From contig CAIRCN010000010.1 in the NCBI GenBank assembly GCA_903877135.1, positions 62,001-126,000 of the forward strand: a stretch of DNA of 64,000 nt. Reading direction: 5' to 3'. This document shows, in pieces, positions 12,593-53,315 of the stretch (its first letter is position 1; each line of letters opens with the position of its first letter). The notes beneath the pieces are model-generated. The model saw only the letters and a program-made list of their open reading frames with translations. It ran no database searches and was not told where the DNA came from. A program made the translations under genes and the position numbers. This DNA is from an uncultured Opitutia bacterium (lineage in GTDB: Bacteria; Verrucomicrobiota; Verrucomicrobiia; Opitutales; Opitutaceae).

Positions 12593-13819
12593 CTACACCA
12601 CCCGCGCCCAAAGCACCTTGAGGTAGCGGCTTTCGAGGCAGTTGGAATAAACAGGATGATCCACGCCCGGTCCCGTGCGATCGAAGAACTGCAGGCGGCG
12701 GTTCTGTCGGTGCGCGGCCTTGATTACGTGCGCCTCAAAATCCTCTAGCGAGAGCAGCCCCGCGCACGAGCACGTCACGAAAATGCCGCCGAGCTTCACC
12801 AGTGAGATCGCGAGCAGGTTGAGGTCCTCGTATTTCTGGCGGCCTTCCCAGTTGCCAGCGGCGTCGCGCGTGAAGATGAACTTCGGCGGATCGAGCACGA
12901 CGACGTCCCACTTCTCCCCGTTCTGTTGCATCTGGCGCGCGTAGCCGAAGGCGTCGGCGTGCACGAACTTCAACCGCGCCTGGTTCAGGTTGGCGTTTCG
13001 CTTCGCCTGCGCGATGGCGGCCTCGTCGAGGTCCACGCTCGTCACCTCGGCCGCGCCGCCGGTGACCTTCGCATTGAGCGAGAAGCCGCCGGTGTAACAG
13101 CAGAGGTCGAGCACGCGGGCGTCCTTGGTGAACCGCGCGAGGGCGCGGCGGTTGTCGCGCTGGTCACAGAAAAATCCGGTCTTGTGCCCCTCGGCAAAAT
13201 CCACCTCGTAGCGCACGCCGTACTCGCGGATTTTCACCACGCGCGGTGCGGCAGCGTTGGTCTCGTTGAAGGCCGATGGCTTGATGCCCTCAAGGCTGCC
13301 GAGATCGTGATCGACATGGACGCGCGCGAACTTTGTGCCGGCCAGTTCGTGCAGCAGTGGCAGCCACTGCGGCAGCCGGTGCGCGATGCCGAGCGAGTAG
13401 ATTTCGCAGAACAGCGTGTCGCCGTAGCGGTCGATCGTCAGGCCGCTGAGCCCGTCGCCGTCGGAGTTGATGAGCCGGTAGGCGTCGGTCGTCTCGTCGA
13501 GCCTGAAGAGGTCGCGGCGCAGCGCGACGGCGCGGCGGAGGGCGGTGTCGAAATATGCCTCGGTGACCGGCTCCGTCGAGTGGCAGACGACGCGCAGTGG
13601 AATCTTCGCGCGCGGGTTGAAGAGCCCGCCACCGGTGAGATTGCCGTTCTTGTCGTAGACGTTGACGAAGTCGCCCGGCCGCGCGTCGGAAGAAACCTGT
13701 CCGAGCAGTCGCGGGAAAATGGCCGGCTGAAACGTGAAGTATTTCAACTGCGCCCACGGCTTCGGCCACGCGGAGCGGTCGAAGGCGATGACGGGTTTTT
13801 CTTCAGGCGCTTCATCCAT
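12593..13819 (-). CDS. Class I SAM-dependent rRNA methyltransferase, RlmI/RlmK-like
   Basis: Probable 23S rRNA cytosine-5 methyltransferase. About 408 residues: an N-terminal PUA-like part (PGDFVNVYDKNGNLTGGG), a central EEHEE-like region (LINSDGDGLSGLTIDRYGD), and a Rossmann methyltransferase domain with the SAM loop VLDLCCYTGGFSLNA and the catalytic motif VVLDPPKF. The start is uncertain: ATG at 13819 (MDEAPEE) gives the family-like N-terminus, while an in-frame ATG at 13921 would overlap the first base pairs of the divergent lyase gene and add an Arg/Lys-rich leader. The family is secure; the exact RNA target is inferred. Confidence 0.85.
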   Translation of the reverse strand: MDEAPEEKPVIAFDRSAWPKPWAQLKYFTFQPAIFPRLLGQVSSDARPGDFVNVYDKNGNLTGGGLFNPRAKIPLRVVCHSTEPVTEAYFDTALRRAVALRRDLFRLDETTDAYRLINSDGDGLSGLTIDRYGDTLFCEIYSLGIAHRLPQWLPLLHELAGTKFARVHVDHDLGSLEGIKPSAFNETNAAAPRVVKIREYGVRYEVDFAEGHKTGFFCDQRDNRRALARFTKDARVLDLCCYTGGFSLNAKVTGGAAEVTSVDLDEAAIAQAKRNANLNQARLKFVHADAFGYARQMQQNGEKWDVVVLDPPKFIFTRDAAGNWEGRQKYEDLNLLAISLVKLGGIFVTCSCAGLLSLEDFEAHVIKAAHRQNRRLQFFDRTGPGVDHPVYSNCLESRYLKVLWARVV

Positions 13820-13919
13820 GTGCAAGACATGGCGCGCGACCGCGCTGCTGGCAAGGTCGCGAACATTCACCGCGGGAAAGCTTGTCCGTGCCGCGCGTTT
13901 TCGTGTCTTCTTCGCCACC

Positions 13920-16256
13920 ATGCGCGTCATCCCGATCAACAGCGCGGAAGCTGTCTTCGAGCTGTTTTTCGACGAAAATCTTCGCGAGTTCGACCAATGG
14001 ACCTTCGACGCCCCCGGTGCCACCGGCGTCACCCGGGTTCCCGGTTGGGCTTTCATCACTTTCCAATGGACCCTGCCTGCGCCAGACGGGCTCGTGCTCC
14101 GGATGCACCGCGCCTACGCCGCGCTTGACTGCTCGGCCTACGACCGGCTGCTGATCTGCAACAACGTCCCCGAGGAGAGCCGCACCACGATCATCGCCGA
14201 GACCAATGTCGGCACGCTCCGCTACACGGGCGAACCCGCCGGCCCCACGCGTCACGAGGAACTGCTCGATCTCGCCGGCGCCACGCGGATCACAGCGCTC
14301 ACCGTCGAGGTGCGCAACCCCCACCCTCGCGCCGGTTCCGGCTGGCTGCTCTGGTTCGGCCTGCAGCACACCGACCGCCTGCCCGCCCACCTCGCCCAGT
14401 GGGCAGGCTACGACGAGTGCTGGGAAAAATACCTCCAGCCGCCGGACTTCGCCGCCAAGTTCGAGCCCGTCTACGGCCTCATGATCGACACCGCCGAGCT
14501 CGACGGCGTCCGGCGCGACTTCGGCGCCACGCCCGTAACCGACGAACTGCGTTTCGTCGCCGAGCGCGCCCGCCGGCAGCGGCCAGAGCGCATGATCGGG
14601 GAGAACCTGAATTTCTGGAGCGCCAACGTGTTTCGCCGCGAGCGCGACATCGGCAAAATGCTCTCGCTCCACGGTTCGTTCGCCGCACAGGCCGGCGTGC
14701 TCTGGCGCGACCCGGAGCTGTGCCGCCTCGCCGCGCGCTTTGCGATCAGCATGGTGCACTGCGACCATTGGGAGGACATTTTCTTTGCGCACCTTCGGGG
14801 CAGCACCTGGGACCAGCGCGGTTTCGTGCAGTCGATCGGCGCGTGGGACTGCGCCGTGATCCTGGACCTGTGCGGCGAGTGGTTCACCCCGCTCGGACGC
14901 GAACTCGTCCTGCGCCGCCTCGCCACCGAGGCGCACGGCGCGATGTGTCACGCCTCGTGGTGGTGGGAATACATGTATCACACCAACCAGATGGCGTGGA
15001 TTTCGCCGTCGCGCATCTACGCCCTGTTGGTGCTCGAGCGCCACATGCCGGCCCGCCATGAAAACTACCCGAAGCCCGACCACTCGCGCGTGGCGCCGCA
15101 CACCGATCTCGCTTGGCAAAATCTTGCGGAAAACATTACCAAAGCCCTCCTGCCCGACGGCGGTTACCTTGAGGGCGCGACCTATTTCACCTGGACCGCA
15201 CGCCAGGCGATCCTCGGCGCGCAGCTCTATGCCCGGGGACGCGGGCGCGACCCGCGGGAGTTCGTCTCACCCTCGCTCCAGAAAACCGGCCGGCTGGCGG
15301 AAATGCTTTATTCGACCGACGACGGCCAGGAGATGATCCTCATCTGCGACGCCGTGATGACGATCGGCGACGGCGTGGCGTTCCTCGCGTGGCTGCTGCC
15401 GCATTCACATTGGGTCACCATCCTGCGCAAACAGCTCAAGCGCGCCGGCGCCGCGCCGCTCCTGCTGGCGCTGCGCCTGGCCCGCGAGTTGCCGGCGCAG
15501 GGACCGGCGTTGGCACCGTTTCTCGAGATGCCCGACACCGGCATGATGTGCTCGGTCCGCAGGCTCGGCCCGGAGCTCGTGAAGTTGTTCATCATGGGCA
15601 ACAAGTCAGGCGGCGACCACCAGCACGAGGACAAGGGCCACTTCGTCCTCGAGTGCGCCGGCGACAGTTTTGCGTTCGACTTCGGCGTCGTCGATTACGC
15701 CAATCCCGTCACAGAACTTCTCAAGCAGTGCCAGCGCCACAACATGCTCACGCCATGGAGCGACGACGCGCGACCCAAGCCGAAGAACCCGATCTTCGCC
15801 GACATTAAACCGCACGGCGCGGGCGACGAAACCCGGTTCCGCGCCACGATGGACCTCGCCGCCGGCTGGGAAGGCTGGTTCGAGCGCTGGCAGCGCACCT
15901 GGGATTCGCCGACGCCCGACCGTTTCGTCATCACCGACGACTGGGCCGTCGCGCAGGGCAAGGGCGTAATCTTCCACTGGACCACTCATCTGCCGATGCG
16001 CCTCGCCGGGGACCGCGTGATCATCGAGGGCCGCCGCGCCACGGCGGAAATTCTGATTCCCCCGGGCGTCGAGGCGAAGATCGACCACCTGCCGCTGCAA
16101 GATCCGCGGCGCACAGCCGTCGAGCAGGACCGGCGCGACATCATCCAGTTCGGCTGGAAACTCGCTGAGACGCAGCCGCGCCTCACACTGCGCCAGCCGG
16201 GCAAATCCGGCGTGCTCCGCATCGTGGTGCACTTCTCCTTCAAAGTTCCCCAATGA
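13920..16256 (+). CDS. Heparinase II/III-like protein, copy 1
   Basis: A 778-residue protein whose C-terminal half matches the heparinase II/III-like fold: GGDHQHEDKGHFVLE (about residues 563-577) followed by DSFAFDFGVVDYANP, preceded by an alpha/alpha-toroid-like helical part (LPDGGYLEGATYFTW, HASWWWEYMYHTNQMAW). Enzymes of this fold are polysaccharide lyases acting on uronic-acid glycans. The N-terminal 170 residues form a separate beta-rich module opening PINSAEAVFE, also present in copy 2 at 18663. No signal peptide is visible, so a cytoplasmic location is likely unless export is non-classical. The gene heads a four-gene operon; its stop overlaps the next start by 4 nt. Substrate is unknown. 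Confidence 0.8.
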   Translation: MRVIPINSAEAVFELFFDENLREFDQWTFDAPGATGVTRVPGWAFITFQWTLPAPDGLVLRMHRAYAALDCSAYDRLLICNNVPEESRTTIIAETNVGTLRYTGEPAGPTRHEELLDLAGATRITALTVEVRNPHPRAGSGWLLWFGLQHTDRLPAHLAQWAGYDECWEKYLQPPDFAAKFEPVYGLMIDTAELDGVRRDFGATPVTDELRFVAERARRQRPERMIGENLNFWSANVFRRERDIGKMLSLHGSFAAQAGVLWRDPELCRLAARFAISMVHCDHWEDIFFAHLRGSTWDQRGFVQSIGAWDCAVILDLCGEWFTPLGRELVLRRLATEAHGAMCHASWWWEYMYHTNQMAWISPSRIYALLVLERHMPARHENYPKPDHSRVAPHTDLAWQNLAENITKALLPDGGYLEGATYFTWTARQAILGAQLYARGRGRDPREFVSPSLQKTGRLAEMLYSTDDGQEMILICDAVMTIGDGVAFLAWLLPHSHWVTILRKQLKRAGAAPLLLALRLARELPAQGPALAPFLEMPDTGMMCSVRRLGPELVKLFIMGNKSGGDHQHEDKGHFVLECAGDSFAFDFGVVDYANPVTELLKQCQRHNMLTPWSDDARPKPKNPIFADIKPHGAGDETRFRATMDLAAGWEGWFERWQRTWDSPTPDRFVITDDWAVAQGKGVIFHWTTHLPMRLAGDRVIIEGRRATAEILIPPGVEAKIDHLPLQDPRRTAVEQDRRDIIQFGWKLAETQPRLTLRQPGKSGVLRIVVHFSFKVPQ

Positions 16257-17062
16257 AATTCGGCCGGTGTCTTTCGCTCGCTCTGGCTGTCGCCGCCCTC
16301 AGCCCGGCGCCACGAACCCGGGCGGAATCCCCCGCGCCAGTGCTCGCTGAAGCGTGGCAGACGCTGTCTGACGGGTTTTACGACGACGCCATCCGGCAGT
16401 TCGCGGCAGCTGGCGATTCGCGCGAGTCACGGCTCGGCCGCGCGATGGCCCAGTGCAACCGCCCGCCTGTGACCACGTCGTCGCTCGGCGACGCACAGCG
16501 GCAGTTCGAAGAACTGGCCGCGGCCGACGACGACATCGGCCACGCTGCGCGTTACTTTCTCGGCCGGCTGCAGCAGTTGCACCCGATGACACCCGACCCA
16601 ACGGCAGCGGCGCGCACCTATGAGCGTCTCGTCGCCACCGGCGCCGACGATCGCTGGTGCCGGCTGGCGCTGGTGAAAATCGCCGTGCTGCGGCTCACTG
16701 TGCTGCCCTCGCCCAACGGTCTCGCCGCCCATCTCGCCACCGCCGAGCCGTTGCTCGCGCGCACCAACGACCCGGTCACACGCCGCGACCTGCACCTCGT
16801 GATTTCCGAGGTGCGGATGCACCACCAGCACTACGACGCCACCACGCTCGGGCACCTGCAGGCCGCGCTCAGCGAGCCGACATTGCCGGCGGATTTGCGT
16901 GCCGACCTGCTCGTCCAGACGGCGCAGGTCTCGCTCCAGCTCGGCGACCCGGCCGCCACGCGCGCCCACTACGGGCGTTTTCTGCGAGAGTTTCCGAAGG
17001 ACCGCCGGCACTACACAGTGCAGCAGGCGCTCGCCCGTCTCGGCGGGCCGTTGCCGCCATGA
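16253..17062 (+). CDS. Secreted TPR-like helical protein of the lyase operon
   Basis: Not recognised as a named family. The 269-residue product has a clear signal peptide (MKFGRCLSLALAVAALSPAP, cleavage near ARAES) and then repeated helix pairs of tetratricopeptide type: YDDAIRQFAAAGD, DAQRQFEELAAADDD, AARTYERLVATGAD, ATRAHYGRFLREFPKD. It overlaps the gene before by ATGA and the gene after by ATGA, so translation is probably coupled. Context suggests an exported accessory protein that scaffolds the adjacent solute-binding protein or lyases. Function beyond that is unknown. Confidence 0.7.
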   Translation: MKFGRCLSLALAVAALSPAPRTRAESPAPVLAEAWQTLSDGFYDDAIRQFAAAGDSRESRLGRAMAQCNRPPVTTSSLGDAQRQFEELAAADDDIGHAARYFLGRLQQLHPMTPDPTAAARTYERLVATGADDRWCRLALVKIAVLRLTVLPSPNGLAAHLATAEPLLARTNDPVTRRDLHLVISEVRMHHQHYDATTLGHLQAALSEPTLPADLRADLLVQTAQVSLQLGDPAATRAHYGRFLREFPKDRRHYTVQQALARLGGPLPP

Positions 17063-18666
17063 GCCGCCGGAGAATCTCCACCCTGGTCGCGCTGGCGCTG
17101 CTCGCCGCCGCCTACGCGCTGTCGGTCAGCCATGTGGCGCACTGGCGCGGCACCGGCCCGGCGGCGCACCCGCCGCAGGTCACGATCCGTTTCGCCCACT
17201 GGCAGCTAGAGGCGGGGATGCGCGAGGCGTTCGATCTGGTAGCCCGCCGCTACATGGAGCTGCACCCCGGGGTGCACGTCGAACAGTTCGCGGTGCCGGG
17301 GGCCGTTTACAAGCAGTGGCTCAACACCCAGCTCGCCGGCGGCACCGTGCCCGACCTCGTCTCGTTCAACTCCACCGACCTCACGCTGGTCGCGCAACTG
17401 CCGCGGCACTTCGAGGCCCTCACCCGCTGGCTGGAGGAACCGAATCCCTACAACGCCGGCACGCGCCTCGCCGGCGTGCCCTGGCGGCTGACCTTCATCG
17501 ACGGCGGGCGTAACCGCTCCACCTACCTCGACCAATACCGCAATTACTACGCCGTCGGCCTGTGCACGCACACCATGCGGATCTTTTACAACCGCGACCT
17601 GCTGCGCGCCATCACGGGCCGCGATGCGCCGCCGCAGAATCTCCGCGAGTGGCTGGAGCTGGGCAAAAAAGTGCGCGCCCACCGCCCGGGCCTGCAGGCC
17701 GTCGCCGGCGCACGGGAAAACACGCTCTGGCTGATGCCCACGTTTGTGAACCAGGCGATGTCCCGCTGGCTGCTGGCCAGCGACTGCGCGCTGCGTTTCT
17801 CGACCACGTCCTGCGATTTCTTCGGCGACGTGCTACTCGGCCGGTGGAGCCTGCGCTCGCCGGAAATGCAGCAAGCCCTGCGTCTCGCCCGGGCCTTCGG
17901 CGGCGAGATGCCCCCGGGCTTCCTCCAGGTGGACCGCGACAGCGCGCTGCAGGCGTTCCTGCGCGGTGACGCGTTTTCGATCCCGGCTGGCACCTGGGAT
18001 TATCCGACCATGCGCGCCCAGGCGGCGTTCCCCATCGGTGCGTTCCGCCTGCCCATGCCCGCGGCCGACGATCTCGAGTTTGGCGGCTTCGTCCTCCTGC
18101 CAGTGGCGGACGGCAACTTGTCCACCGCGATGCCGTTCTACCTCGCGAAGCAAAGCCGCCACAAGGCCGAGGCCCTCGACTTTCTGCGCTTCGTGACTGG
18201 GCTGGAGGGCAACCGACTCTTTTCGCACGCCAGCCACTGGATGCCGTCGATCGAGGGTGCCGAGATCGACGCCGAATTGGAACCCTTCAAACAAACGCTG
18301 GGCGGTTACAACGTCATCGACGTGCAGAATGGCCCCTCCGTGCTCACCGGGCCCGGGGCGGACTACACCCGCCTGCTCGAGACCAACCTCCACCTCCTCT
18401 ACGCGCCCAACGGCGGTGTCGAGGCGTTCACCCGCGCCATCGAGGGACGGTTTCGTGACACCGTGCGCTCCGACCTGCAAAAGCAGCTCCACGTCCAACT
18501 CGAGAATCTGCGCCGCCGCGACCTCGCGCTCGGGGCGCTGGAGTTTCTCGACGCCGGCGAACGCGCCGAGGCCGGCCGGCAGCTCTCCGGCCAGCACCTC
18601 GTCGAAACCCAGGCGTGCCTGCTGGCCGGCACGCTGACCGACACTGCGCCGCAATCACTCCCATGA
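17059..18666 (+). CDS. Extracellular solute-binding protein (ABC sugar-type)
   Basis: Family 1 extracellular solute-binding protein for carbohydrate uptake, 535 aa. After an N-terminal membrane segment (ISTLVALALLAAAYALSVSH) the binding-protein fold begins with VTIRFAHWQLEAGMREAFD and contains ELHPGVHVEQFAVPG, GTVPDLVSFN, THTMRIFYNRDLLR and DAFSIPAGTWDYPTM. It is longer than the usual 400-450 residues because of a charged helical C-terminal extension (residues about 455-535). No lipobox Cys is seen, so it may stay anchored by its N-terminal helix. No permease or ATPase gene accompanies it; the nearest genes are the two lyases and the TPR-like protein. Start ATG overlaps the previous stop by 4 nt. 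Confidence 0.85.
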   Translation: MSRRRISTLVALALLAAAYALSVSHVAHWRGTGPAAHPPQVTIRFAHWQLEAGMREAFDLVARRYMELHPGVHVEQFAVPGAVYKQWLNTQLAGGTVPDLVSFNSTDLTLVAQLPRHFEALTRWLEEPNPYNAGTRLAGVPWRLTFIDGGRNRSTYLDQYRNYYAVGLCTHTMRIFYNRDLLRAITGRDAPPQNLREWLELGKKVRAHRPGLQAVAGARENTLWLMPTFVNQAMSRWLLASDCALRFSTTSCDFFGDVLLGRWSLRSPEMQQALRLARAFGGEMPPGFLQVDRDSALQAFLRGDAFSIPAGTWDYPTMRAQAAFPIGAFRLPMPAADDLEFGGFVLLPVADGNLSTAMPFYLAKQSRHKAEALDFLRFVTGLEGNRLFSHASHWMPSIEGAEIDAELEPFKQTLGGYNVIDVQNGPSVLTGPGADYTRLLETNLHLLYAPNGGVEAFTRAIEGRFRDTVRSDLQKQLHVQLENLRRRDLALGALEFLDAGERAEAGRQLSGQHLVETQACLLAGTLTDTAPQSLP

Positions 18667-20987
18667 AACTCACCCCCATCAATAGCGCCGAGGCCGTCTT
18701 CGAGGCCTTTCACGACCCGCAGATCAGCGAACTCAGCCAGTGGACCGTCACCGCCGACGGCGTCACCGGCTTCAAGGTCTGGCAGAACTGGATCTGGGTG
18801 CAGTGGACTTGGCAGCAGCCCGCGCCCGACGGGCTCGTGGTGCGCTTCACCCGTGCGCTCGACCTCGATTGCTCGGTCTACGACCGCATCATCGTTTGCG
18901 TCGCCATCCCTGACGGCGGCACCATTACACTGCACGCCGAGACCGATGCCGGACCGCTCACGCGCCGCGGCGAACCGTTCGCCGCGACCAAACGCGAAGA
19001 GTGGCTGCCGCTCGATGGCGCGAGACGCGTGACAGCGCTAACCATCGAGGCGCATTTTCCCAGCAAGAACACTGGCACCGGCTGGATTTACTGGATGGCC
19101 CTCCAAAGCACTGCGCGCCTCCCGTCACATCTCGCCCAATGGCAAGGCTACGACGAATGCTGGGAAAAATACCTGCAGCCGGTGGAGTTCGAGCCCACGT
19201 TCAGACCTGCGCATGGCCTGCTTCTGGATGCCGACGAACTCGACGCCGTGCGCAAAGAGTTTGCGGATTCACCTATGGCTGGAGCTTTGCGCGAGGCCGC
19301 CGAAGACGCGACGGTGGTGCCGCCGGAGCGGCTCATCGGTCAATACGTCAATTTCTGGAATTCCAACTCTCTCCGCCGCGAGCGAGACCACGGCAAAGTC
19401 ATCACCATCCACGGTGCCAACGCCGCGCAGGCCGGCATGCTCTTTCGCGACAAGCGCCTCTGTCGCCTCGCTGCGCGCTTCGCCCTGAGCATCGCTCACT
19501 GCGAGCGTTGGGACGACAATTTCGTCTGCTACATGCCCGGCAGCACCTGGGAGCAGCGCGCCTTCATCCAGTCGGTGTGCGTGTTCGAGTGCTCGCTCAT
19601 CCTCGACCTCTGCGGCGAGTGGTTCACCGAGGTCGGCCGCCAGCTCATCCTGCGCCGCATCGCAGAAGAAGGCATCGGCAACCTCAATTTCAATATCTGG
19701 TGGTGGGAATATATTTTCCACTGCAATCAGATCGCGTGGTTCACCCCGGGCCGCATCCTCGGTTACCTTCTACTCGAGCGCACCATGCCGGCGCGCTGTG
19801 AAAATTATCCGCGCCCCTCACCTTCCCGTGTCGCCCCCTACACCGAACTCGCGATCAAGGATCTCATCGAAAATCTCGACCGCTGCCTTCTGCCCGACGG
19901 CGGCTACGTCGAGGGGCCGACCTATTTCACCTGGGTCGCGCGGCAGGCGTTCGTCGCGCTGCACCTCTACGCCCGCGCCCGCGGCCGACCGCTGCACGAA
20001 CTGATGCCGGCGCAGATGAAACAGACTGCGCTGATGGCCGAGGTGCTCTACTCGACCGACGACCGCCTCGACGTGATCCTGATTTGCGACGCGATGTATG
20101 CGTTTCCCGAGGCTCTGGCCCACCTCGCGGCGTTCATGCCCGACAGCCACTGGGTCACCATTTACCACAAGCAGCTCAGCCGCGCCGGCGCCTCGCCCTC
20201 GCTCCTCGCCATGGCGCTCTCGCGGAACATCCCGGCGGAAGGCCCGCCACTGCGCCCGTTCGTGGACATGCCGTCCACCGGCATGATGTGCTCCGTGCGC
20301 CGCCATCAGGGCGAACTGGTGAAGCTTTTTCTGATGGGCAACAAAGCCGGCGCCGGGCACACCCACGAGGACAAAGGCAGCTTCGTCCTCGAGTTTGCCG
20401 GCGACAGTTTCGCGATGGATTTTGGCGTGGTGGACTACAGCAACCCGCTCGTCCCGGAACTGAAAACCGCCCAGCGCCACAACATGCTAACCCCCTGGTC
20501 GCTCGGCGCGCGAGCCTGTCCCAGTAATCCGATCAACGCCGACATCCGCGCCGCCGGCCGCGGCGACGCGACCGCGTTTCACGCCACGATGGATGCCACC
20601 GCCGGCTGGGAAGGCTGGTTCACGAAATGGCAGCGCACCTGGGATTCGCCTACACCCGACACGCTGGTCATCACCGACGAGTGGGCCGTCGCGCAGGGCG
20701 AAGGCGCGGTGTTTCACTGGACCACCCCGGTGCCCATGCATCGCGAGGGCGACAGGATCATCGTCACTGGCCGTCGCGGGTGTGCTGAGATCACGATCCC
20801 GCCCGACACCGAGGCCATCCTCGAGGAACTGCCGCTGATGAATCCGGAACGTCGCGCCATCGACGAACTCCGCCGCGAACTGGTGCGCTTCGGTATTCGC
20901 CACGCCGACACCCAACCCCGCCTCACGATCCGCCAGCGCGGTTCCTCCGGGATGTTGCGGGTCGAAGTGCGCCTGCACCGGTTGTGA
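18663..20987 (+). CDS. Heparinase II/III-like protein, copy 2
   Basis: A 774-residue paralog of the protein at 13920, similar along its whole length: same PINSAEAVFE N-terminus, shared blocks GYDECWEKYLQP, LPDGGY.EG.TYFTW, DMPSTGMMCSVRR, and the lyase motif HTHEDKGSFVLE at the same residue position (about 563), then DSFAMDFGVVDYSNP. Differences are spread evenly, indicating an old duplication rather than a recent copy. No signal peptide. It overlaps the binding-protein stop by 4 nt (ATGA). Two different but related lyases in one operon suggest two linkages or two steps of one glycan. The reaction itself is inferred from fold only. Confidence 0.8.
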   Translation: MKLTPINSAEAVFEAFHDPQISELSQWTVTADGVTGFKVWQNWIWVQWTWQQPAPDGLVVRFTRALDLDCSVYDRIIVCVAIPDGGTITLHAETDAGPLTRRGEPFAATKREEWLPLDGARRVTALTIEAHFPSKNTGTGWIYWMALQSTARLPSHLAQWQGYDECWEKYLQPVEFEPTFRPAHGLLLDADELDAVRKEFADSPMAGALREAAEDATVVPPERLIGQYVNFWNSNSLRRERDHGKVITIHGANAAQAGMLFRDKRLCRLAARFALSIAHCERWDDNFVCYMPGSTWEQRAFIQSVCVFECSLILDLCGEWFTEVGRQLILRRIAEEGIGNLNFNIWWWEYIFHCNQIAWFTPGRILGYLLLERTMPARCENYPRPSPSRVAPYTELAIKDLIENLDRCLLPDGGYVEGPTYFTWVARQAFVALHLYARARGRPLHELMPAQMKQTALMAEVLYSTDDRLDVILICDAMYAFPEALAHLAAFMPDSHWVTIYHKQLSRAGASPSLLAMALSRNIPAEGPPLRPFVDMPSTGMMCSVRRHQGELVKLFLMGNKAGAGHTHEDKGSFVLEFAGDSFAMDFGVVDYSNPLVPELKTAQRHNMLTPWSLGARACPSNPINADIRAAGRGDATAFHATMDATAGWEGWFTKWQRTWDSPTPDTLVITDEWAVAQGEGAVFHWTTPVPMHREGDRIIVTGRRGCAEITIPPDTEAILEELPLMNPERRAIDELRRELVRFGIRHADTQPRLTIRQRGSSGMLRVEVRLHRL

Positions 20988-20990
20988 ATG

Positions 20991-21020
20991 AAAAAGGCCG
21001 ACCGGAATCCGGTCGGCCTT
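20991..21020 (-). terminator. Rho-independent terminator after the phosphorylase gene
   Basis: A 12-bp perfect stem (AAGGCCGACCGG, then CCGGTCGGCCTT, 20994-21020) with a 3-nt loop. On the minus strand it ends in a T tract (A run at 20991-20995 on the plus strand), placing it 28 nt beyond the stop of the minus-strand phosphorylase. It also lies just beyond the plus-strand lyase operon and may stop that transcript less efficiently, since no T run follows on that side. Confidence 0.8.
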
Positions 21021-44667: not shown

Positions 44668-46008
44668 TCAGAGCGCGCCGATCGCCTCGTCGAGGACGGC
44701 GAGGACGAAGTCGGCGTCGGCCTGCGTGATGTTCATCGGCGGGGCGAAGCGGATAGTCTGGCCCCAGAGGCCGCCTTTGCCGAGGAGCAGGCCGAGTTCG
44801 CGGGCGTTTTCCACGGCCTGCGCGCACTCTTCCTTGCCGGGCGCCTTGGTCGCGCGGTCCTTCACGAACTCAATGCCGAGCATCAGGCCCTTGCCTCGGA
44901 CGTCGCCGATGACCGGGTATTTTCCCTTCAGCTTGTTCAGGCCAGCGAGGAGGTAGGTGCCGAGCTTCAGGCAATTTTCTTGCGTTTTTTCCTGTTCGAT
45001 GACCTCGAGGACGGCTTTGCCAATGGCGCTGACGACGGGGTTGCCGCCGAAGGTGTTGAAGTGGACCTTTTGGGTCATCACAGCGGCGATCTTCGGCGTG
45101 GTGACGACGGCGGCGAGGGGCGCGCCGTTGCCGATGCCCTTGGCCATCGTGACGATGTCGGGGATGACACCCTGCGTCTCGAAGCCCCAGAAATGCGTGC
45201 CAGTGCGGCCGAAGCCCGTCTGGACCTCGTCGGCGATGCAGACGCCGCCGGCGGCGCGGACGTGAGCGTAGACCTGCTGGAGGTAGCCCTGGGGAAACTC
45301 GACGAAGCCGCCCACGCCCTGGATCGACTCGGCGATGAACGCGGAGACCTTGCCGGGCGTGGCGTATTCGATGAGGTTCTTGACGTCGTCGGCGTATTTG
45401 CGACCGGCGTCGGGGTCGTCGTAGCCAAAGTTGCCGCGGTAGGGGTAGGGAGACTGCGCGTGGTGGACGCCGAAGGAGTGGGGCGTGTTGAATTTCCAGG
45501 TGCTGTGTGCGGTGAGGCCCATTGAGGCGGGGCTGCCGCCGTGGTAGGCGTTGCGGAGGGCGATGGCGTCGTAGTTGCCGGTGTAGAGGCGCGCCATGAG
45601 CATCGCGAGGTCGTTGGCCTCGGAGCCGGAGTTGACGAAGTAGCAGACCTTGAGGTCACCGGGCATCTTCGAGGCGAGTTTCTCCGCGTATTCCGCGATT
45701 TTCGGTTGGAGATAAATGGTGGTGGAGTGCTGGAGCGTGGCGTTCTGGGCGTTGGCGGCGGCGAGGACGTGCGGGTGGCAGTGACCGACGCTGACGGTCA
45801 CGATGCCGCCGAGGCCGTCGAGGTAGCGTTTGCCGGTGTCGTCCCAGACATACTGCATTTTCCCCTCCACGATCATGATTGGCTGCTTGTAATAGAGGAA
45901 GAGGCCGGGGTTGAGGTATTGCTTGCGCAGCGCGAGCACGTGGTCGGCGGACGGGCCGGTATAGGGCGCGGGAGTGTGCGCGGTGGGAGGAAGAGGGATG
46001 GATTTCAT
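44668..46008 (-). CDS. Class III aminotransferase, probable beta-alanine transaminase
   Basis: PLP enzyme of 446 residues, similar to alanine-glyoxylate/beta-alanine transaminases (AGXT2-like). It shows [42 protein letters not shown] and the PLP lysine about residue 287 in [15 protein letters not shown]. As last gene of the pyrimidine cluster it most likely converts beta-alanine or beta-aminoisobutyrate to malonate or methylmalonate semialdehyde, the substrate of the MmsA encoded upstream. That specificity is inferred from context. The ATG at 46008 (MKSIPLPP) is the first in the conserved region, 41 nt after the transporter stop. Confidence 0.88.
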
Positions 46009-46049
46009 GGGACTAGTGAACAGCGAAATGGGGCGGGTGACGAGCGGGT

Positions 46050-47558
46050 TCAGCCGCGGGGGGCGAGTTTCCGAAGGACGAGGTAGACGAGGAAGGCGAC
46101 GCCGAAGCCGACGAACCAGGCGTAATTGTAGAGCGAGAGCAGGAACGGGGAAACGTGGGCGCCGTCGATGACCTTCACGTTCGCGAGGAAACCCGGCAGG
46201 CTCGGGAGCACGCCGACGGTGAAGGCCGCGATCGCGACGAGGCTGAAGCCGCCTTGGTAGCGATACTCGCCCTCGGGGAGGTAGAGGTTGAGCACGTCGA
46301 GGTGCCGGCGGCGCACGACGAAATAGTCGGCAATCATCACACCGCCGATCGGCCCGAGCAGGCCACTGTAGGCGATGAGCCAGGTGAAGATGTAGCCGTT
46401 GGGGTCGGCGACGAGTTTCCATGGCATCATCACGATGCCGATGAGCCCAGTGATGAAGCCGCCGACGCGGAAGGAAATTTTTTTCGGCGCGAGGTGGGCA
46501 AAGTCGTTGGCAGGCGAGACGACGTTGGCGGCGATGTTGGTCGCAAGCGTGGCGATGCAGAGCGCGAGCATCGAGACGACGAGGAGCGCGGGATTCTTGA
46601 ACCGCGTGAGCACGTCCACCGGGTCCCAGATTGTGGTGCCGTAGATGATCGTGGTGGCCGAGGTGACGGCGACGCCGATGAAGGCGTAGAGCGCCATGGT
46701 GGCCGGGAGGCCGACGAGCTGGCCGACGACTTGGTCGCGCTGCGTGTAGGCATAGCGCGAGAAGTCGGGGATGTTGAGCGAGAGCGTCGCCCAGAAGCCG
46801 ACCATACCGGTGAGCGCCGGGAAGAAAAACGTCCAGAATTGTCCGGCCTTGGGCTGGCCGGCGTCGAAGGCGGAGGGCTGCGAGAGGATGGGGCCGAAGC
46901 CGCCGGCGTTGCGGTAGGCCCACCAGAGCAGAAGCAGGCCGAGGGCGATGAGGAGCGGCGCCTTGATGTTCAGGAGCACGCGGATGGTGTCGATGCCGCG
47001 CCAGATGACCCACATATTGATGCACCAAAAAAACAGGAAGCAGAGGAACTGCGCGCCCGTGATGCCGAGAAAATTGGCCGTCGAGCCCGACGCGAGCGAC
47101 GGCCAGAAGACGGCGAGGATTTTGTAGATGGCGTTGCCGCCGATCCACGTCTGGATGCCGAACCAGCCGCAGGCGACGAGCGCGCGGAGAAGCGCGGGGA
47201 GGTTAGCGCCCGCGGTGCCGAACGAGGCGCGGCAGAAAACGGGAAACGGAATGCCGTATTTCGTGCCGGCGTGGGCGTTGAGGATCATCGGCACCACGAC
47301 GACCAAATTGCCGAGGAAGATGGTGACAATGGCCTGCGACCAGTTCATGCCGCCGCCGATGAGCGACGAGGCGAGCATGTAGGTGGGGATGCACGCCGAC
47401 ATCGAGATCCACAGCGCGGCAAAGCTCAGCAGTCCCCACTTGCGCTGGGCGCGCGTAACGGGTGCGAGGTCGGCGTTGTAGAGGTGCGAGTGCTGGATTT
47501 GCGCGAGGTCAAACTCGACGTCGGGGGCGTTATGAACGAGGCCGGGGTTGGTGGGCAT
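46050..47558 (-). CDS. NCS1-family nucleobase:cation symporter
   Basis: Twelve-helix inner membrane transporter of 502 residues in the NCS1 family (purines, pyrimidines, hydantoins, allantoin). Family-like segments are the N-terminal [47 protein letters not shown] and [16 protein letters not shown]. Placed in the middle of the reductive pyrimidine operon, it most likely imports uracil or thymine. A palindromic element sits between its start and the upstream dihydropyrimidinase stop. Confidence 0.9.
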
Positions 47559-47568
47559 GTTTGGGGTA

Positions 47569-47618
47569 GCGCCGGCTCCCAGCCGGCAGGGTTGAGATGG
47601 CCGGCTGGAAGCCGGCGC
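47569..47618. repeat. REP-like palindrome between transporter and dihydropyrimidinase genes
   Basis: Two 19-nt arms (GCGCCGGCTCCCAGCCGGC at 47569-47587 and GCCGGCTGGAAGCCGGCGC at 47600-47618) are inverted copies with one mismatch, separated by 12 nt. There is no T tract, so it is not a classic terminator. Each arm contains its own GCCGGCT/AGCCGGC sub-repeat. It fills the 62-nt gap in an operon and may act as an RNA-stability or attenuation hairpin; its form suggests a dispersed repeat family. Confidence 0.75.
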
Positions 47619-47620
47619 AA

Positions 47621-49003
47621 CTAGAAGTGGCTCGGTTTGCGTTGGAGGAACTGGCCGCGACCGAGGGTGCCGGTGAACCGGCCGTCGCGGGCGGCGACTT
47701 GGCCGCGGACGGTGACCACGCTCGCGCGGCCCTCGATCGGCAAGCCTTCGAACGCGCTGTAGTCGACGGCCATGTGCTGCGTCTTCACGGAGATGTTCCC
47801 GCGATAGTTCGGATCGAAGACAACGAGATCGGCGTCGGCGCCAGGCTGGATCGCGCCTTTGCGCGGGAAGAGGTCGAACTGTTTCGCGACCTGAGTGCTG
47901 GCGGCGTTGACCATCGTGTGGAGGTCGATCTTGCCGGTCTTCACGCCGTAGGTGTAGAGGAGGTTGATGCGTTCCTCGAGCGAGGGGATGCCATTGGGGA
48001 TCTTGGTAAAGTCGTCCTTCCCCATCGGCTTTTGTGTCTTGAAGTCGAACGGCGCATGGTCGGTGGCCACGGTGTTGATGAGGCCGTCGCGGAGACCGCT
48101 CCAGAGGACGGATTGGTTCCCCTTGTCGCGCAGCGGCGGCGACATCACGTATTTCGCTCCCTCGAACTTCGGCTTCTCGGCGTAGGTTTTGTCGAGCGTG
48201 AGATATTGGATGAGCGTCTCGATGCCGACGCGCACTCCGCGCTGGCGGGCATTAATGGCCTGGTCGAGCGACTCCTTGCAGCTCAGGTGGACAATGTAGA
48301 CCGTGGCACCGGTGAGCTCGGCGAACGTCATGAGGTGGTGCACGCCCTCGGCCTCGACGGCGGGCGGGCGACTCTCGTGGTGATAGGAGGGATCGGTCTT
48401 GCCCGCGGCGATGAGCTCGCGGCAGCGCTCGGTGACGAGAGTCTCGTTTTCGCAGTGCGCGGTGACGACGACGCCGAGTTCATTGGCGAGCTTAAGCGTC
48501 CGGTAGAGTTCGGTGTCGTCGACGCCGAAGGCGCCCTTGTAGGCGAGGAAAATTTTAAAGGAGCTGATGCCGCGTTTCACGATCTCGCGAAGTTGGGATT
48601 CAGTCTGTGCGTCGTAGCGGGAGACGCCCATGTGGAACGAGAAATCGCACGCGGACTTGCCGACGGCCTGGCTCATCCAGAGATCGAAAGAGGCGAGGGC
48701 GTCATCCTTCTTCGCGGGGCAGCACATCTCGATGAGGGTGGTAGTGCCGCCGACGAGCGCTGCCTGCGAGCCGGTGACATAGGTGTCTTTCGAAAACGTC
48801 CCCATGAAGGGGAGGTAGATGTGGACGTGGGGGTCGATGAAGCCGGGGAAGACAAATTTGCCCGTGGCGTCGATGACCTCGGCGCCAGCGGGGGCGGAGA
48901 GGTTCTGGTCGATGCGGGTGATGGTGTCGCCTTCGCAGTAGATGTCGGCGACGTAGCGCGAGTCGGCCGTTACGATTTCTCCATTCTTGATCAAGAGTGC
49001 CAT
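47621..49003 (-). CDS. hydA: Dihydropyrimidinase (D-hydantoinase)
   Basis: Zinc amidohydrolase that opens dihydrouracil to N-carbamoyl-beta-alanine and dihydrothymine to its methyl homolog. 460 residues with the metal motif FIDPHVHIYLPFMG, the carboxylated lysine in SFKIFLAYKGAFGVDD (about residue 152), VTAHCENETLV, HLSCKESLDQA and the Asp in VATDHAPFDFKTQ. Length and motifs match dihydropyrimidinases. It starts 18 nt after mmsA stops and belongs to the pyrimidine operon. Confident. Confidence 0.95.
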   Translation of the reverse strand: MALLIKNGEIVTADSRYVADIYCEGDTITRIDQNLSAPAGAEVIDATGKFVFPGFIDPHVHIYLPFMGTFSKDTYVTGSQAALVGGTTTLIEMCCPAKKDDALASFDLWMSQAVGKSACDFSFHMGVSRYDAQTESQLREIVKRGISSFKIFLAYKGAFGVDDTELYRTLKLANELGVVVTAHCENETLVTERCRELIAAGKTDPSYHHESRPPAVEAEGVHHLMTFAELTGATVYIVHLSCKESLDQAINARQRGVRVGIETLIQYLTLDKTYAEKPKFEGAKYVMSPPLRDKGNQSVLWSGLRDGLINTVATDHAPFDFKTQKPMGKDDFTKIPNGIPSLEERINLLYTYGVKTGKIDLHTMVNAASTQVAKQFDLFPRKGAIQPGADADLVVFDPNYRGNISVKTQHMAVDYSAFEGLPIEGRASVVTVRGQVAARDGRFTGTLGRGQFLQRKPSHF

Positions 49004-49021
49004 GGTGAAGGTGGGTTAAGG

Positions 49022-50509
49022 TTATTTTTTCCAGACGTCGCCGACGTCGCCGCCGAACCAGCGGGAGCTGACGACTTTTTGCTGGGTGTAGAACTGGATG
49101 CTTTCTTTGCCCTGGATGTGGAGGTCGCCGAAGAACGACTCGTCCCAGCCGGTGAAGGGAAACATCGCCATCGTGGCGGGCACGCCGACGTTCACGCCGA
49201 CCATGCCGGCTTTCACGCGCATCGTGAACTCGCGGGCGGCGCGTCCGCTGTTGGTGAAGATCGCCGCGCCGTTGCCGAAGACGGACTTGTTGGCCTGCTC
49301 AATGGCGGCGTCGAGATCGACCATCCGCATGACGTTGAGCACAGGGCCGAAAATCTCCTCGCGGGCGAGGGTCATGTTGTTCCGCACGCCGTCGACGACT
49401 GTGGCGCCGAGGTAGAAACCGCGCGGGGCGTCGGGGACTTTCACGCTGCGGCCGTCGGCGATGATCCGGGCGCCCTCGGACTCGCCGCTGGCGAGGAGGC
49501 TGAGCACGCGGTCGCGGTGGGCGGCGGTGATGACGGGGCCCATGTCGGGCTGCGCGGCGCGGTCGGTCGGGCCGACCCGGATGGCGTTGGCGGCCTTGAC
49601 GAGATCGGGGAGCACGCGTTCGGCGGCGGCGCCGATGGCGATGGCGGTCGAGCCGGCCATGCAGCGTTCGCCGGCGCAACCGAAGGCGGCGGTAGCGAGA
49701 TTCTCGACGGTCTTGGCGACGTCGGCGTCGGGCATGACGACGATGTAGTTTTTCGCGCCGCCGTTGGCTTGGACGCGTTTGCCGTGCTTGATGCCGGTTT
49801 CGTAGATGTATTTCGCGATGGGGGTGGAGCCGACGAATGAGACCGCCGTGACCTTCGGGTGCATGAGCAGGCCGTCGACGACGGCGCGGCCACCGTGGAC
49901 GAGGTTGAAGACGCCCTTGGGCAGGCCGGCCTGCTCGAGGAGCTGGCCGAGAAGGATGGCGCTAAGCGGGACTTTCTCGCTCGGCTTCAGGACGAAGGTG
50001 TTGCCGCAGGCGAGGGCGACGGGGAACATCCAGAGCGGCACCATCGCGGGGAAATTGAAGGGCGTGATGCCGACGCAGACGCCGAGCGGCATGTTGATGG
50101 TGTCGCAGTCCACGCCGCGGGCGATGTTGCGGAGCGAGTCGCCGAAAAGGAGCGTGGGGATGCCGCAGGCGTATTCGATGTTTTCGAGGCCGCGGAAGAT
50201 GGAGCCGCGGGCCTCGGCGTGGGTCTTGCCGTGCTCGCGCGAGACGGTCTGGCAGAGCCGATCGAAGTTGGCCTCGACGAGCTGGCGGTAGCGAAAAAAC
50301 ACGCGGGCGCGTTCAATCGGCGGAGTGTCACGCCAGGCGGGGAAGGCGGCGTTCGCGGCCTCAACGGCGGCGTTGACCTCGGCAAGGCCGCCCGCGGGGC
50401 ACTCGGCGATGACGTCGCCCGTGGAGGGATTGAAGACGGGCGTGGTGACGCCGGAGGGCGTCTGCCATTCGCCGCCAATGAAATTGGGGCAGGGTGCTAG
50501 ATGATTCAT
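49022..50509 (-). CDS. mmsA: CoA-acylating (methyl)malonate-semialdehyde dehydrogenase
   Basis: Oxidises malonate or methylmalonate semialdehyde with NAD and CoA to acetyl- or propionyl-CoA, releasing CO2. 495 residues with the aldehyde dehydrogenase fold; the catalytic Cys (about 281) is in GCAGERCMAG, without the general-base Glu motif of hydrolytic ALDHs, as in MmsA. Other blocks: GITPFNFPAMVPLWMFP, LKPSEKVPLSAI, REEIFGPVLNV. It follows preA after 3 nt. In this cluster it provides the last step of uracil/thymine breakdown. Confidence 0.94.
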   Translation of the reverse strand: MNHLAPCPNFIGGEWQTPSGVTTPVFNPSTGDVIAECPAGGLAEVNAAVEAANAAFPAWRDTPPIERARVFFRYRQLVEANFDRLCQTVSREHGKTHAEARGSIFRGLENIEYACGIPTLLFGDSLRNIARGVDCDTINMPLGVCVGITPFNFPAMVPLWMFPVALACGNTFVLKPSEKVPLSAILLGQLLEQAGLPKGVFNLVHGGRAVVDGLLMHPKVTAVSFVGSTPIAKYIYETGIKHGKRVQANGGAKNYIVVMPDADVAKTVENLATAAFGCAGERCMAGSTAIAIGAAAERVLPDLVKAANAIRVGPTDRAAQPDMGPVITAAHRDRVLSLLASGESEGARIIADGRSVKVPDAPRGFYLGATVVDGVRNNMTLAREEIFGPVLNVMRMVDLDAAIEQANKSVFGNGAAIFTNSGRAAREFTMRVKAGMVGVNVGVPATMAMFPFTGWDESFFGDLHIQGKESIQFYTQQKVVSSRWFGGDVGDVWKK

Positions 50510-50512
50510 AGA

Positions 50513-51829
50513 TTAGGGGTGCGGCGGGATGGGCTGCATTTCACCGGCGGCGAGTTTTTCCTGGTAGTTGCTCCAGCTCATCGGGGGTTGGCCGTTGTCG
50601 ATCACGGTCATCTTGATGCAGTCGTCCACGGGGCAGACGAGACTGCACAGGTTGCAGCCGACACAGTCGTCTTCGCGGACTTTCGGGACCGGTTTGTGCG
50701 GGACGCGACCGGGGCCGAGGTCGAGACCGAGCTCCTCGGGCGTTTTCAGGTCGATGCACTGGTGGGCGCCGTCTTCGCAGGCGATGTAGCACAGGTTGCA
50801 GCCGATGCATTTCGCGTAGTCGATGCGGGCGACGCGCTGCCAGTGGAGGTCGAGCGTCTCCCATTTTTGCAGGGTGGGCACGGAGCGCCCGATGAGTTCG
50901 GTGACGGACTTCATGCCCTTGCTGTCGAGGTAGGAGCTGAGGCCTTCGTGCATGTCCTCCACGATACGGAAGCCGTAGTGCATGATCGCGGTGCAGACCT
51001 GCACGCTGGTGGAGCCGAGGGCGATGAACTCGGCGGCGTCGCGCCAGGTGGCGATGCCGCCGATGCCGGAAATGGGGAGGCGGACATCGGGGTCGGCGGC
51101 GCAGGACTGGACCATGTTGAGCGCGATCGGCTTCACGGCGGGACCGCAGTAGCCGCCGTGCGAGCTGCGGCCGGCGACGGTGGGCTCGGGCACGAACGTG
51201 TCGAGGTTCACGTTGGTGATCGAGTTGATGGTGTTGATGAGCGAGAGGGCATTGGCGCCGGCGCGGCGCGCGGCGCGGGCGACGGCGGTGACGTCGGTGA
51301 CGTTGGGGGTGAGCTTGACGATGACGGGGATGGTGGCGACCTCCATGACCCAGCTGGTGATTTTCTCGGCGACGGCGGGTTGCTGGCCGACGGCGGAGCC
51401 CATGCCGCGCTCGCACATGCCGTGGGGGCAGCCGAAGTTGAGCTCGATGCCGTCGGCGCCGGCGTCGGCGGCGCGCTTGACGAACTCGTGCCACTGCTCG
51501 CGCGTCTCGACCATGAGGGAGGCGATGACGGCGTGGTGCGGCCAGCGGGCCTTCACCTCGGCGATTTCGCGGAAATTTTTCTCGGGCGAGCGGTCGCTGA
51601 TGAGCTCGATGTTGTTGAAGCCGACCATGCGGTCGGGGCCGTGGTTGAGCGCGGAGTAGCGGGAGGCGACGTTGACGATGGGGGCGCCGATGGTCTTCCA
51701 GACGACGCCGCCCCAGCCGGCCTCGAAGGCGCGGTGGGCCTGGTAGCCGGTGTTGGACGGCGGGCCGGAGGCGACCCAGAAGGGGTTGGGGGATTTGATG
51801 CCGGCGAGGTTAGTGGAGAGGTCGGCCAT
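50513..51829 (-). CDS. preA: NAD-dependent dihydropyrimidine dehydrogenase, subunit PreA
   Basis: Catalytic FMN/Fe-S subunit reducing uracil or thymine to the dihydro form. 438 residues: a DHOD-like barrel with NPFWVASGPPSNT, the active-site loop NFGCPHGMCERGMGSAVGQ (catalytic Cys), SGIGGIATWRDAAEF; then two 4Fe-4S motifs at the C-terminus, CIGCNLCYIACEDGAHQC (about 343) and CVGCNLCSLVCPVDDC (about 395). It pairs with the PreT encoded 37 nt upstream. Confident. Confidence 0.95.
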   Translation of the reverse strand: MADLSTNLAGIKSPNPFWVASGPPSNTGYQAHRAFEAGWGGVVWKTIGAPIVNVASRYSALNHGPDRMVGFNNIELISDRSPEKNFREIAEVKARWPHHAVIASLMVETREQWHEFVKRAADAGADGIELNFGCPHGMCERGMGSAVGQQPAVAEKITSWVMEVATIPVIVKLTPNVTDVTAVARAARRAGANALSLINTINSITNVNLDTFVPEPTVAGRSSHGGYCGPAVKPIALNMVQSCAADPDVRLPISGIGGIATWRDAAEFIALGSTSVQVCTAIMHYGFRIVEDMHEGLSSYLDSKGMKSVTELIGRSVPTLQKWETLDLHWQRVARIDYAKCIGCNLCYIACEDGAHQCIDLKTPEELGLDLGPGRVPHKPVPKVREDDCVGCNLCSLVCPVDDCIKMTVIDNGQPPMSWSNYQEKLAAGEMQPIPPHP

Positions 51830-51866
51830 GGGGTATAGTGATGAGTGAAGAGTGGCGAGTGATGAG

Positions 51867-53315
51867 CTACTTTTTCAGCGCTTCCACCAACTCGTGGGCG
51901 CGGATGGGTGAGAGGAGGCCGGAGCCGCTGGAGCCCTGCTTCGCGCCGAGGCGCGAGGGCTGGACGAGCGGCGTGGCGGTTTCTTTCGTGAGGAACGTGT
52001 GGATGCCGTGCGCGGCCTTCTTACCCTCGCCGACGGCGTTGACGACTTCGCGACCGCCGTTGGCGCAGTCGCCGCCGGTGAAGATGTGCGGGACGTTGGT
52101 CTGACCAGTGAGCGGGTCGTGGGCGATGACGCCGCGCGAGTCGATTTGGAGCGCGGGGAAGAGCTGCCGGAGCAGCGCGACCTGCTTTTCCTGGCCGACG
52201 GCCTTGAGGACGAGATCGCAGGGCTCGATATATTCGGTTTCGGGAATCGGCTCGGGACGACCGTCCGCGCCGGCGCGGGTGCGGACCAGGCGGAGGCCGA
52301 TCACATGGCCGGCGCTGCCGCGCACCTCGACGGGCATGACGTTGAAGAGGAAGCGGGCGCCGTCGTGCTTCGCCAGTTGGTATTCGAAGTTGTATGCGGA
52401 CATGTCGCCTTCGCTGCGGCGGTAAACGACTGTGGCCTGCTCGGCGCCGAGGCGAAGCGACTGCGTGACGGCGTCGATGGCGGTATTGCCAGCACCGATG
52501 ACGACGACGCGGCGGCCGATCGGCACCCGGTCGAGGGGGTGGGTGTGGATCTGGTCGATGAAGTCGAGGGCGTCGACGACTTCGGGGAGATTCTCGCCCG
52601 GGATGCGCAGGCGGGTGGCAGCACCAAGGCCGACCCCGACAAAGATCGCGTCGAAGGCCTTTTCAAGTTGGGCCACGGTGAGATCCTTGCCGATGGTGAG
52701 GCCGCAGCGGAGCTCGACGCCGAGGGAACCGACGAGTTCGGCCTCGGCCAGGCTGACATCGGGTTTCATCTTGTAGTAGGCGATGCCGTAGGTGTTGAGG
52801 CCGCCGGGCCGGGCCTGTTTCTCGAAGACAACGACAGTGTGGCCGAGCTGGGCGAGTTCGGCGGCGCAAGCGAGGCCGGCGGGGCCAGCGCCGATGACGG
52901 CGACGCGCTTGCCGGAGGTCTGCGCAGGGAGAGAAAAGACCTTGATCCCACGCTCGGCCACGTAGTCGGTGGCGTAGCGCTGGAGGCGGCCGATCTGGAT
53001 GGGTTGCTCATCGCGGTCTTCGAGCACGCAGGCGCCTTCGCAGAGGACGGAGGTTGGGCAAACGCGGGCGCAGGAAGCGCCGAGGATGTTGGCGGTGAGG
53101 ATGGTTTTGGCGGCGGCGACGGGGTTGCCGTGGGCGATTTTCTTGATGAAGGCGGGGACGTCGATGCCGGCCGGGCACGCCATGATGCAGGGTGCGTCGA
53201 AGCAGTAAAGGCAGCGGTTCGCCTCGACGAGGGCTTCCTGGCGGCGCAGGGCGGGTTTCAACTCGGCCATGTTGGCCGCGATGGTGGCGGCGGGAAGGAG
53301 TGGTTGGAGTGGCAT
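51867..53315 (-). CDS. preT: NAD-dependent dihydropyrimidine dehydrogenase, subunit PreT
   Basis: Flavin subunit delivering NAD(P)H electrons to PreA. 482 residues with the N-terminal Fe-S region (CLYCFDAPCIMACPAGIDVP and CARVCPTSVLCEGACVL), the FAD site VAVIGAGPAGLACAAELA, the NAD(P) site VVVIGAGNTAIDAV, and IFTGGDCANGGREVVNAVGE near the C-terminus. It is the first gene of the minus-strand pyrimidine operon. A 228-nt gap separates it from the divergent amidohydrolase gene. It is somewhat longer than the E. coli protein. Confidence 0.94.
   Translation of the reverse strand: MPLQPLLPAATIAANMAELKPALRRQEALVEANRCLYCFDAPCIMACPAGIDVPAFIKKIAHGNPVAAAKTILTANILGASCARVCPTSVLCEGACVLEDRDEQPIQIGRLQRYATDYVAERGIKVFSLPAQTSGKRVAVIGAGPAGLACAAELAQLGHTVVVFEKQARPGGLNTYGIAYYKMKPDVSLAEAELVGSLGVELRCGLTIGKDLTVAQLEKAFDAIFVGVGLGAATRLRIPGENLPEVVDALDFIDQIHTHPLDRVPIGRRVVVIGAGNTAIDAVTQSLRLGAEQATVVYRRSEGDMSAYNFEYQLAKHDGARFLFNVMPVEVRGSAGHVIGLRLVRTRAGADGRPEPIPETEYIEPCDLVLKAVGQEKQVALLRQLFPALQIDSRGVIAHDPLTGQTNVPHIFTGGDCANGGREVVNAVGEGKKAAHGIHTFLTKETATPLVQPSRLGAKQGSSGSGLLSPIRAHELVEALKK

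Follow-up and report, generated by a model that had tools for sequence, protein, structure and literature searches.

The stretch of DNA analyzed here, called the window, covers 64 kb of contig C10 in the draft genome of an uncultured Opitutaceae bacterium (G000; 4.2 Mb, 87 contigs). Between positions 13920 and 20987 it contains four genes, all on the plus strand, which encode a first heparinase-fold protein (lyase A), a TPR protein, a solute-binding protein (SBP), and a second heparinase-fold protein (lyase B) (Table 1). The coordinates confirm the layout proposed in the original prediction for this DNA, in which all three junctions are 4-nt ATGA overlaps (16253-16256, 17059-17062, and 18663-18666). 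As had also been claimed, the operon carries no gene for a permease, ATPase, TonB receptor, sulfatase, or regulator, and no ABC permease is encoded in the operon or the rest of the 64-kb window. With no SusC/SusD (TonB receptor) genes, the operon is not a SusCD-type polysaccharide utilization locus; the TonB plug domains of the host genome are found on other contigs. Genes were called with a home-made program and the lists of neighbors are approximate; the search for SBPs and permeases was run a second time on stop-to-stop frames.

Table 1. Features of the four-gene operon and its borders (window coordinates).
Feature	Position	Strand	Basis
Gap between the operon and a divergent rRNA-methyltransferase-like gene, ~100 bp	13820..13919	.	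Probable promoter region
Lyase A, heparinase-II/III-fold protein, 778 aa	13920..16256	+	No signal peptide by eye
HQHEDKG motif of lyase A: candidate catalytic His567 and two metal ligands	15618..15638	+	Alignment with lyase B; columns invariant in 34
TPR protein, 269 aa, probable signal peptide, standing partner of the SBP	16253..17062	+	Pfam TPR_14
SBP, 535 aa, probable uncleaved N-terminal membrane helix and C-terminal helical hairpin	17059..18666	+	SBP_bac_8/SBP_bac_1; model
SBP N-terminal helix 2-32, probable membrane anchor	17062..17154	+	Model; hydrophobic segment in 26/26 aligned homologues
SBP C-terminal helical hairpin, residues 454-528	18418..18642	+	Model
Lyase B, three-domain heparinase-II/III-fold protein, 774 aa	18663..20987	+	No signal peptide by eye
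Asn355 of lyase B, candidate carboxylate neutralizer	19725..19727	+	Invariant in 34; role by fold position versus PL35
Tyr421 of lyase B, candidate catalytic acid/base	19923..19925	+	Invariant in 34; role by fold position
HTHEDKG motif of lyase B: candidate catalytic His566, metal ligands His568 and Asp570	20358..20378	+	8khv alignment; invariant
Asp586 of lyase B, candidate metal ligand (8khv Asp421)	20418..20420	+	8khv alignment; invariant
His606 of lyase B, candidate metal ligand (role of 8khv His457)	20478..20480	+	Invariant; role by position
12-bp hairpin 3' of lyase B	20994..21020	.	Sequence

The probable start of the divergent methyltransferase-like gene was re-placed near 13819 by comparison with two relatives (L003 and L008), in which the corresponding gap is 118-133 bp. 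About 100 bp are therefore left for a promoter, and no sigma-70-like match was found in this gap. At the other border, the hairpin downstream of lyase B is likely the end of the operon.

The overlaps had been considered rare for a whole operon and taken as a sign of stoichiometric production. Overlaps of this size are not rare here, as two further gene pairs within the window also overlap by 4 nt. Only the overlap between the TPR and SBP genes is general among relatives (55/76 SBP genes in the family set and 10/14 outside the family). The junction between the lyase A and TPR genes is -4, -4, -1, or +40 nt in relatives, and that between the SBP and lyase genes ranges from +16 to +264 nt. Because the overlaps outside the TPR-SBP pair are not conserved, the stoichiometric argument fails, and the conserved unit is this pair rather than the four-gene operon.

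Conservation of the four-gene order had been proposed as a test, and the gene set was found to vary. In relatives the locus is flanked by efp and a carbonic-anhydrase-like gene on one side, and by a pyrimidine phosphorylase gene and argS on the other. At this same chromosomal place the arrangement is A-TPR-SBP-A'-B (L008), A-TPR-SBP-B (L010 and L071), TPR-SBP-B (L004), A-TPR-SBP (L073), or A-B with no TPR-SBP pair (L001 and L003); the last case indicates that the lyases do not need the TPR-SBP receptor. Also at this place, A and B are separated by other genes (L005) or A is alone (L006). The six SBPs encoded beside these lyases form a clade with full support (100/100) that is found only beside them (6/6). 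In the lyase tree, the B proteins are a single clade (97/85) and the A proteins fall within a wider set of paralogues.

Lyases A and B share 57% identity along their entire length, in agreement with the claim that they are paralogues, and they start with MRVIPINSAEAVFE (A) and MKLTPINSAEAVFE (B). The heparinase assignment by Pfam is less even: the C-terminal heparinase domain is the only one detected, and Hepar_II_III_C (PF07940; cut-off 24 bits) is passed by B (32.2 bits) and narrowly missed by A (22.6 bits). The H-x-HEDKG motif, said to lie at the same residue in both, is offset by one, at position 567 of A and 566 of B. No signal peptide was seen in either protein when judged by eye, as predicted, and the start is conserved across the lyase family; both enzymes are thus presumably cytoplasmic.

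An AlphaFold model of lyase B, built from a 34-sequence alignment (pLDDT 90.3, pTM 0.89), has an N-terminal beta-rich domain, a middle alpha-helical domain, and a C-terminal beta domain, the last two corresponding to an alpha/alpha toroid followed by an antiparallel beta domain. Its best fold matches in the PDB are GAGase II (PL35), the exo-alginate lyase Atu3025 (PL15), a chondroitinase, exoHep, and PL33; Atu3025 comes second, with an alignment that covers nearly the entire length. In addition, the extra N-terminal beta-sandwich known from PL15 is present throughout the lyase A/B family. Sequence similarity to the solved enzymes is low, since the fold alignments with PL35 and PL15 give 12-15% identity and a phmmer comparison of B with 8khv matched only 38 residues (E = 0.0039). 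Over the catalytic module, the two proteins therefore belong by sequence to neither PL35 nor PL15, and they may represent a new family of polysaccharide lyases.

The mechanism published for PL35 assigns catalysis to Tyr246, His401, and Asn192 and metal binding to His403, Asp405, Asp421, and His457 (PMC12088678). The phmmer alignment places His566, His568, Asp570, and Asp586 of lyase B on His401, His403, Asp405, and Asp421 of 8khv, and Asn355, Tyr421, and His606 are candidates, by position, for the remaining roles. All of these residues are invariant across 34 members of the lyase family, distant ones included. The structural comparison advocated in the original prediction thus yielded a candidate active site, with lyase B as the modeled protein, and its invariance in both copies led us to reject the idea of a pseudogene or degenerate lyase. 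Like PL35, PL15, and PL33 (8khv, 3a0o, and 8r70), the proteins combine a toroid and beta-sandwich with Tyr/His/Asn candidates and a His/Asp metal site; they differ from these families by their 12-15% identity, the lack of a signal peptide, and an Asn-Gln pair where the solved lyases have Asn-Asn or Asn-His. This substitution, together with a fold match at rank 19 to human dermatan sulfate epimerase 1 (6hzn), could point to a different reaction on the same fold, for example uronyl epimerization. We give this little credence, as lyases head the list of fold matches and no Tyr/His/Asn or metal-ligand candidate is missing. On the basis of the model, lyases A and B probably cut acidic sugars by beta-elimination at a uronic acid.

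Which glycan would be cut is suggested by gene neighborhoods. Alginate_lyase (PF05426) is absent from the host genome, so that a linked alginate pathway of that type is lacking, and the genome has one GH88-type unsaturated uronidase that could handle unsaturated products. Lyase matches number ten in this genome, and several are partial or distant. Lyase paralogues located elsewhere have LacI regulators, an MFS carrier, RhaT, a GH106 alpha-L-rhamnosidase, GH38, and mandelate-racemase-type enzymes as neighbors, a hint, and only that, of a glycan with rhamnose and uronic acid. At one locus (L009:4121-9948), a lyase gene and a GH106 alpha-L-rhamnosidase gene overlap by 1 nt, and additional lyase paralogues surround them. 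One genome with lyases at 45% identity has no SBP match (G620). Among plasmid records, only rhizobial SBPs at 22-26% identity were found, with no sign of plasmid spread.

The SBP has the fold of an oligosaccharide-type binding protein. Its model (pLDDT 86.9) has a binding-protein core between an N-terminal helix and a helical hairpin at the C terminus, and the nearest solved structures are RafE (2i58, 18% identity) and other oligosaccharide SBPs. In line with its SBP_bac_1/8 assignment, it is a binding protein of the kind used by CUT1 importers, and a PNP-x-N-x-G motif is common to 26/26 aligned homologues. The model and inspection by eye suggest that the N-terminal helix anchors the protein in the membrane. 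Beyond sharing the fold of RafE-type CUT1 SBPs, whose family is typically served by a shared ATPase, the protein is distinguished from RafE by its membrane helix and C-terminal hairpin, by a TPR partner gene, and by the lack of a permease in the operon. A resemblance of its tail to polyubiquitin was dismissed, the score being a sum of eight weak copies of which none was significant alone. Pfam recognizes a single TPR in the TPR protein. A TPR homologue is encoded upstream of the SBP for at least 55/76 SBP genes in the family set and for 12/14 outside the family; the TPR protein may be a standing extra subunit. The SBP fold, a lyase fold in which every candidate active-site residue is present, and the lack of lyase signal peptides all support the central idea of the original prediction, namely capture outside the cell and cleavage inside it.

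Outside the host's family, the SBP gene is directly followed by ABC permease genes in all 14 loci fetched, whether these are fused or separate, and in three of these (L140, L143, and L146) an ABC ATPase gene comes after them. The host genome has a permease pair homologous to these with no SBP beside it (G000:C20:2985-4780), and each of its five other CUT1-type permease pairs has its own SBP. Within the family, one genome (G164) carries the TPR-SBP pair directly followed by orthologues of the C20 pair (79% and 63% identity), and in another (G050) an ABC ATPase gene follows the orthologous pair. The statement that the operon is neither a standard polysaccharide utilization locus nor a standard ABC cassette is right in its first half; the second half is misleading, because permeases follow the TPR-SBP homologues outside the family and the host has an orthologous pair without an SBP. 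Permeases in homologous loci, named in advance as evidence against the original prediction, are regular for the TPR-SBP module but not for loci with these lyases, and its interpretation as a whole is partly supported. Its picture of a self-contained four-gene capture-and-cleavage device that involves no ABC permease fits the lack of a permease in the operon and the window; we regard it as very improbable in view of the phylum-wide linkage of module and permease, the orthologous pair in the host genome, and the variability of the gene set.

The distribution of the two components leads in the same direction. Among 80 genomes of the family, a C20-type permease was found in 18/18 with a strong SBP match, spread over 13 genera, and in 2/62 of the others, both of which have a weaker SBP adjoining it on the same contig (Fisher p ~5e-16, not corrected for shared ancestry). 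The TPR-SBP module is present in 1-12 copies per genome and almost always lacks a permease: the 18 genomes contain 72 strong SBP genes, of which four adjoin such a permease (L137, L237, L239, and L251), and one genome has 12 SBPs and one permease pair (G600). The host itself has five copies besides that of the operon. Orthology and co-occurrence, as opposed to physical contact, suggest that these receptors may share the permease.

The SBP might instead use another permease of the host, either a CUT1 pair with its own SBP or one of Opp/Dpp type, the SBP-less pair co-occurring by common descent. There would be a choice of partners, given 21 BPD_transp_1 matches in the host genome, and at one locus (L235:7653-10973) a fused SBP_bac_5/BPD_transp_1 protein of 1106 aa, of an ABC type unlike the C20 permeases, is encoded 12 nt after TPR-SBP. 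This appears quite unlikely, because the SBP-less pair is the only one orthologous to the permeases behind this SBP family (40-79% identity) and is distributed like the SBP over 13 genera.

Permease-less TPR-SBP pairs adjoin, or lie within a few genes of, unrelated glycan enzymes. These include rhamnogalacturonan lyases of PL26 and PL11 type, accompanied by a LacI regulator (L134), GH20 (L204), GH10 (L211), GH123 (L226), GH127 (L236), GH35 (L241), GH1 together with a heparinase-fold protein (L132), and, in another family of the order, GH4 (L139). Further heparinase-fold proteins are encoded near TPR-SBP at four loci (L131, L205, L210, and L216). Substrate-specific receptors on a shared importer would look like this. 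A different role, as a sensor or glycan-retention device with the substrate entering by an MFS or other carrier, could be read from the 68/72 family SBP copies with no adjoining permease, the tethering of the SBP, the histidine kinase and response regulator near one host-genome copy (L058), and the MFS and RhaT genes near lyase paralogues. We judge it unlikely: ABC permeases follow the pair in 14/14 loci outside the family, the permease orthologue co-occurs without exception, and the operon of the window has no kinase gene.

Two other kinds of genes recur beside these modules. Prepilin-like genes (N-terminus TLIELLTVIAIIG or similar) lie near TPR-SBP at eight loci (L131, L134, L206, L207, L208, L210, L211, and L245; G600 and G633), and pseudopilins may have some connection with glycan uptake. 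One TPR-SBP clade is accompanied by a protein of 617-635 aa that starts with or contains MGAYDFNF (L216:8886-10739, L220:4219-6072, L229:8169-10022, and L232:8292-10199), of which the L216 copy gives a weak match to the heparinase C-domain (E = 1.1e-4).

We consider it reasonably probable that the operon encodes a receptor that plugs into a shared ABC permease, along with two cytoplasmic lyases for a uronic-acid glycan, perhaps one with rhamnose. The TPR protein and the membrane-anchored SBP would form a periplasmic oligosaccharide receptor, which would deliver its ligand to the C20 permease, common to this receptor and the five other TPR-SBP copies of the genome. The permease would probably be driven by an unlinked ATPase of MsmK/UgpC type, for which the host has a 55% match cut by a contig end (C16) and a 46% match (C44). 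Once imported, the oligosaccharide would be cleaved in the cytoplasm by lyases A and B through metal-assisted beta-elimination next to a uronic acid.

Alginate is imported by an ABC transporter and degraded by cytoplasmic lyases in known systems, as exemplified by AlgQ/AlgM/AlgS of Sphingomonas A1 and the PL15 exolyase Atu3025 of Agrobacterium. The route proposed here is similar in that sugar acid oligomers would enter through an ABC importer and be cleaved by cytoplasmic lyases. It differs in the 12-14% identity to Atu3025, the location of the permease outside the operon, the TPR partner, the tethering of the SBP by an N-terminal helix, and the two paralogous lyases. The use of several binding proteins by one ABC permease is also known (Thomas, 2010, a review), for example for Cbc of Pseudomonas (Chen, 2010), both cited in PMC12838199. 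As in these systems, unlinked binding proteins would serve one permease here, a sharing that we infer; in contrast, these are glycan receptors, number up to 12 per genome, and each have a TPR partner and their own glycan enzymes. No description of TPR-SBP or Opitutaceae heparinase systems was found in the searched, mostly open-access literature, and the term "ABC transporter" does not occur in a paper on a Verrucomicrobiota alginate degrader (PMC13274419). Against the literature that could be searched, the scale of the proposed system, the presence of a TPR partner, and the association with distinct glycan enzymes appear to be new.

More generally, the locus may be part of a hub-and-spoke mode of ABC glycan import in some of the Verrucomicrobiota, with a TPR protein as extra subunit and 1-12 tethered receptors on one permease core, each beside its own glycan enzymes; the receptor of the window would then be dedicated to a new family of cytoplasmic heparinase-fold lyases. 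Our belief in this wider picture and our doubt about it are nearly in balance. Many glycans of algae and plants are broken down by Verrucomicrobiota, and how the fragments enter the cell is poorly described for many of these bacteria. If the hypothesis is correct, a shared permease would explain how the substrate range grows by addition of a two-gene module, the specificities of receptor and enzymes would be tied together, which would help to predict function, and loss of a single permease would abolish growth on several unrelated glycans.

Two further regions of the window deserve mention. A pyruvate:ferredoxin-oxidoreductase-type protein was called at 1595 aa (55207-59994), which is longer than usual for this enzyme. 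A run of minus-strand genes (44668-53315), which includes an aminotransferase and a Transp_cyt_pur permease, resembles a cluster for pyrimidine or hydantoin catabolism.
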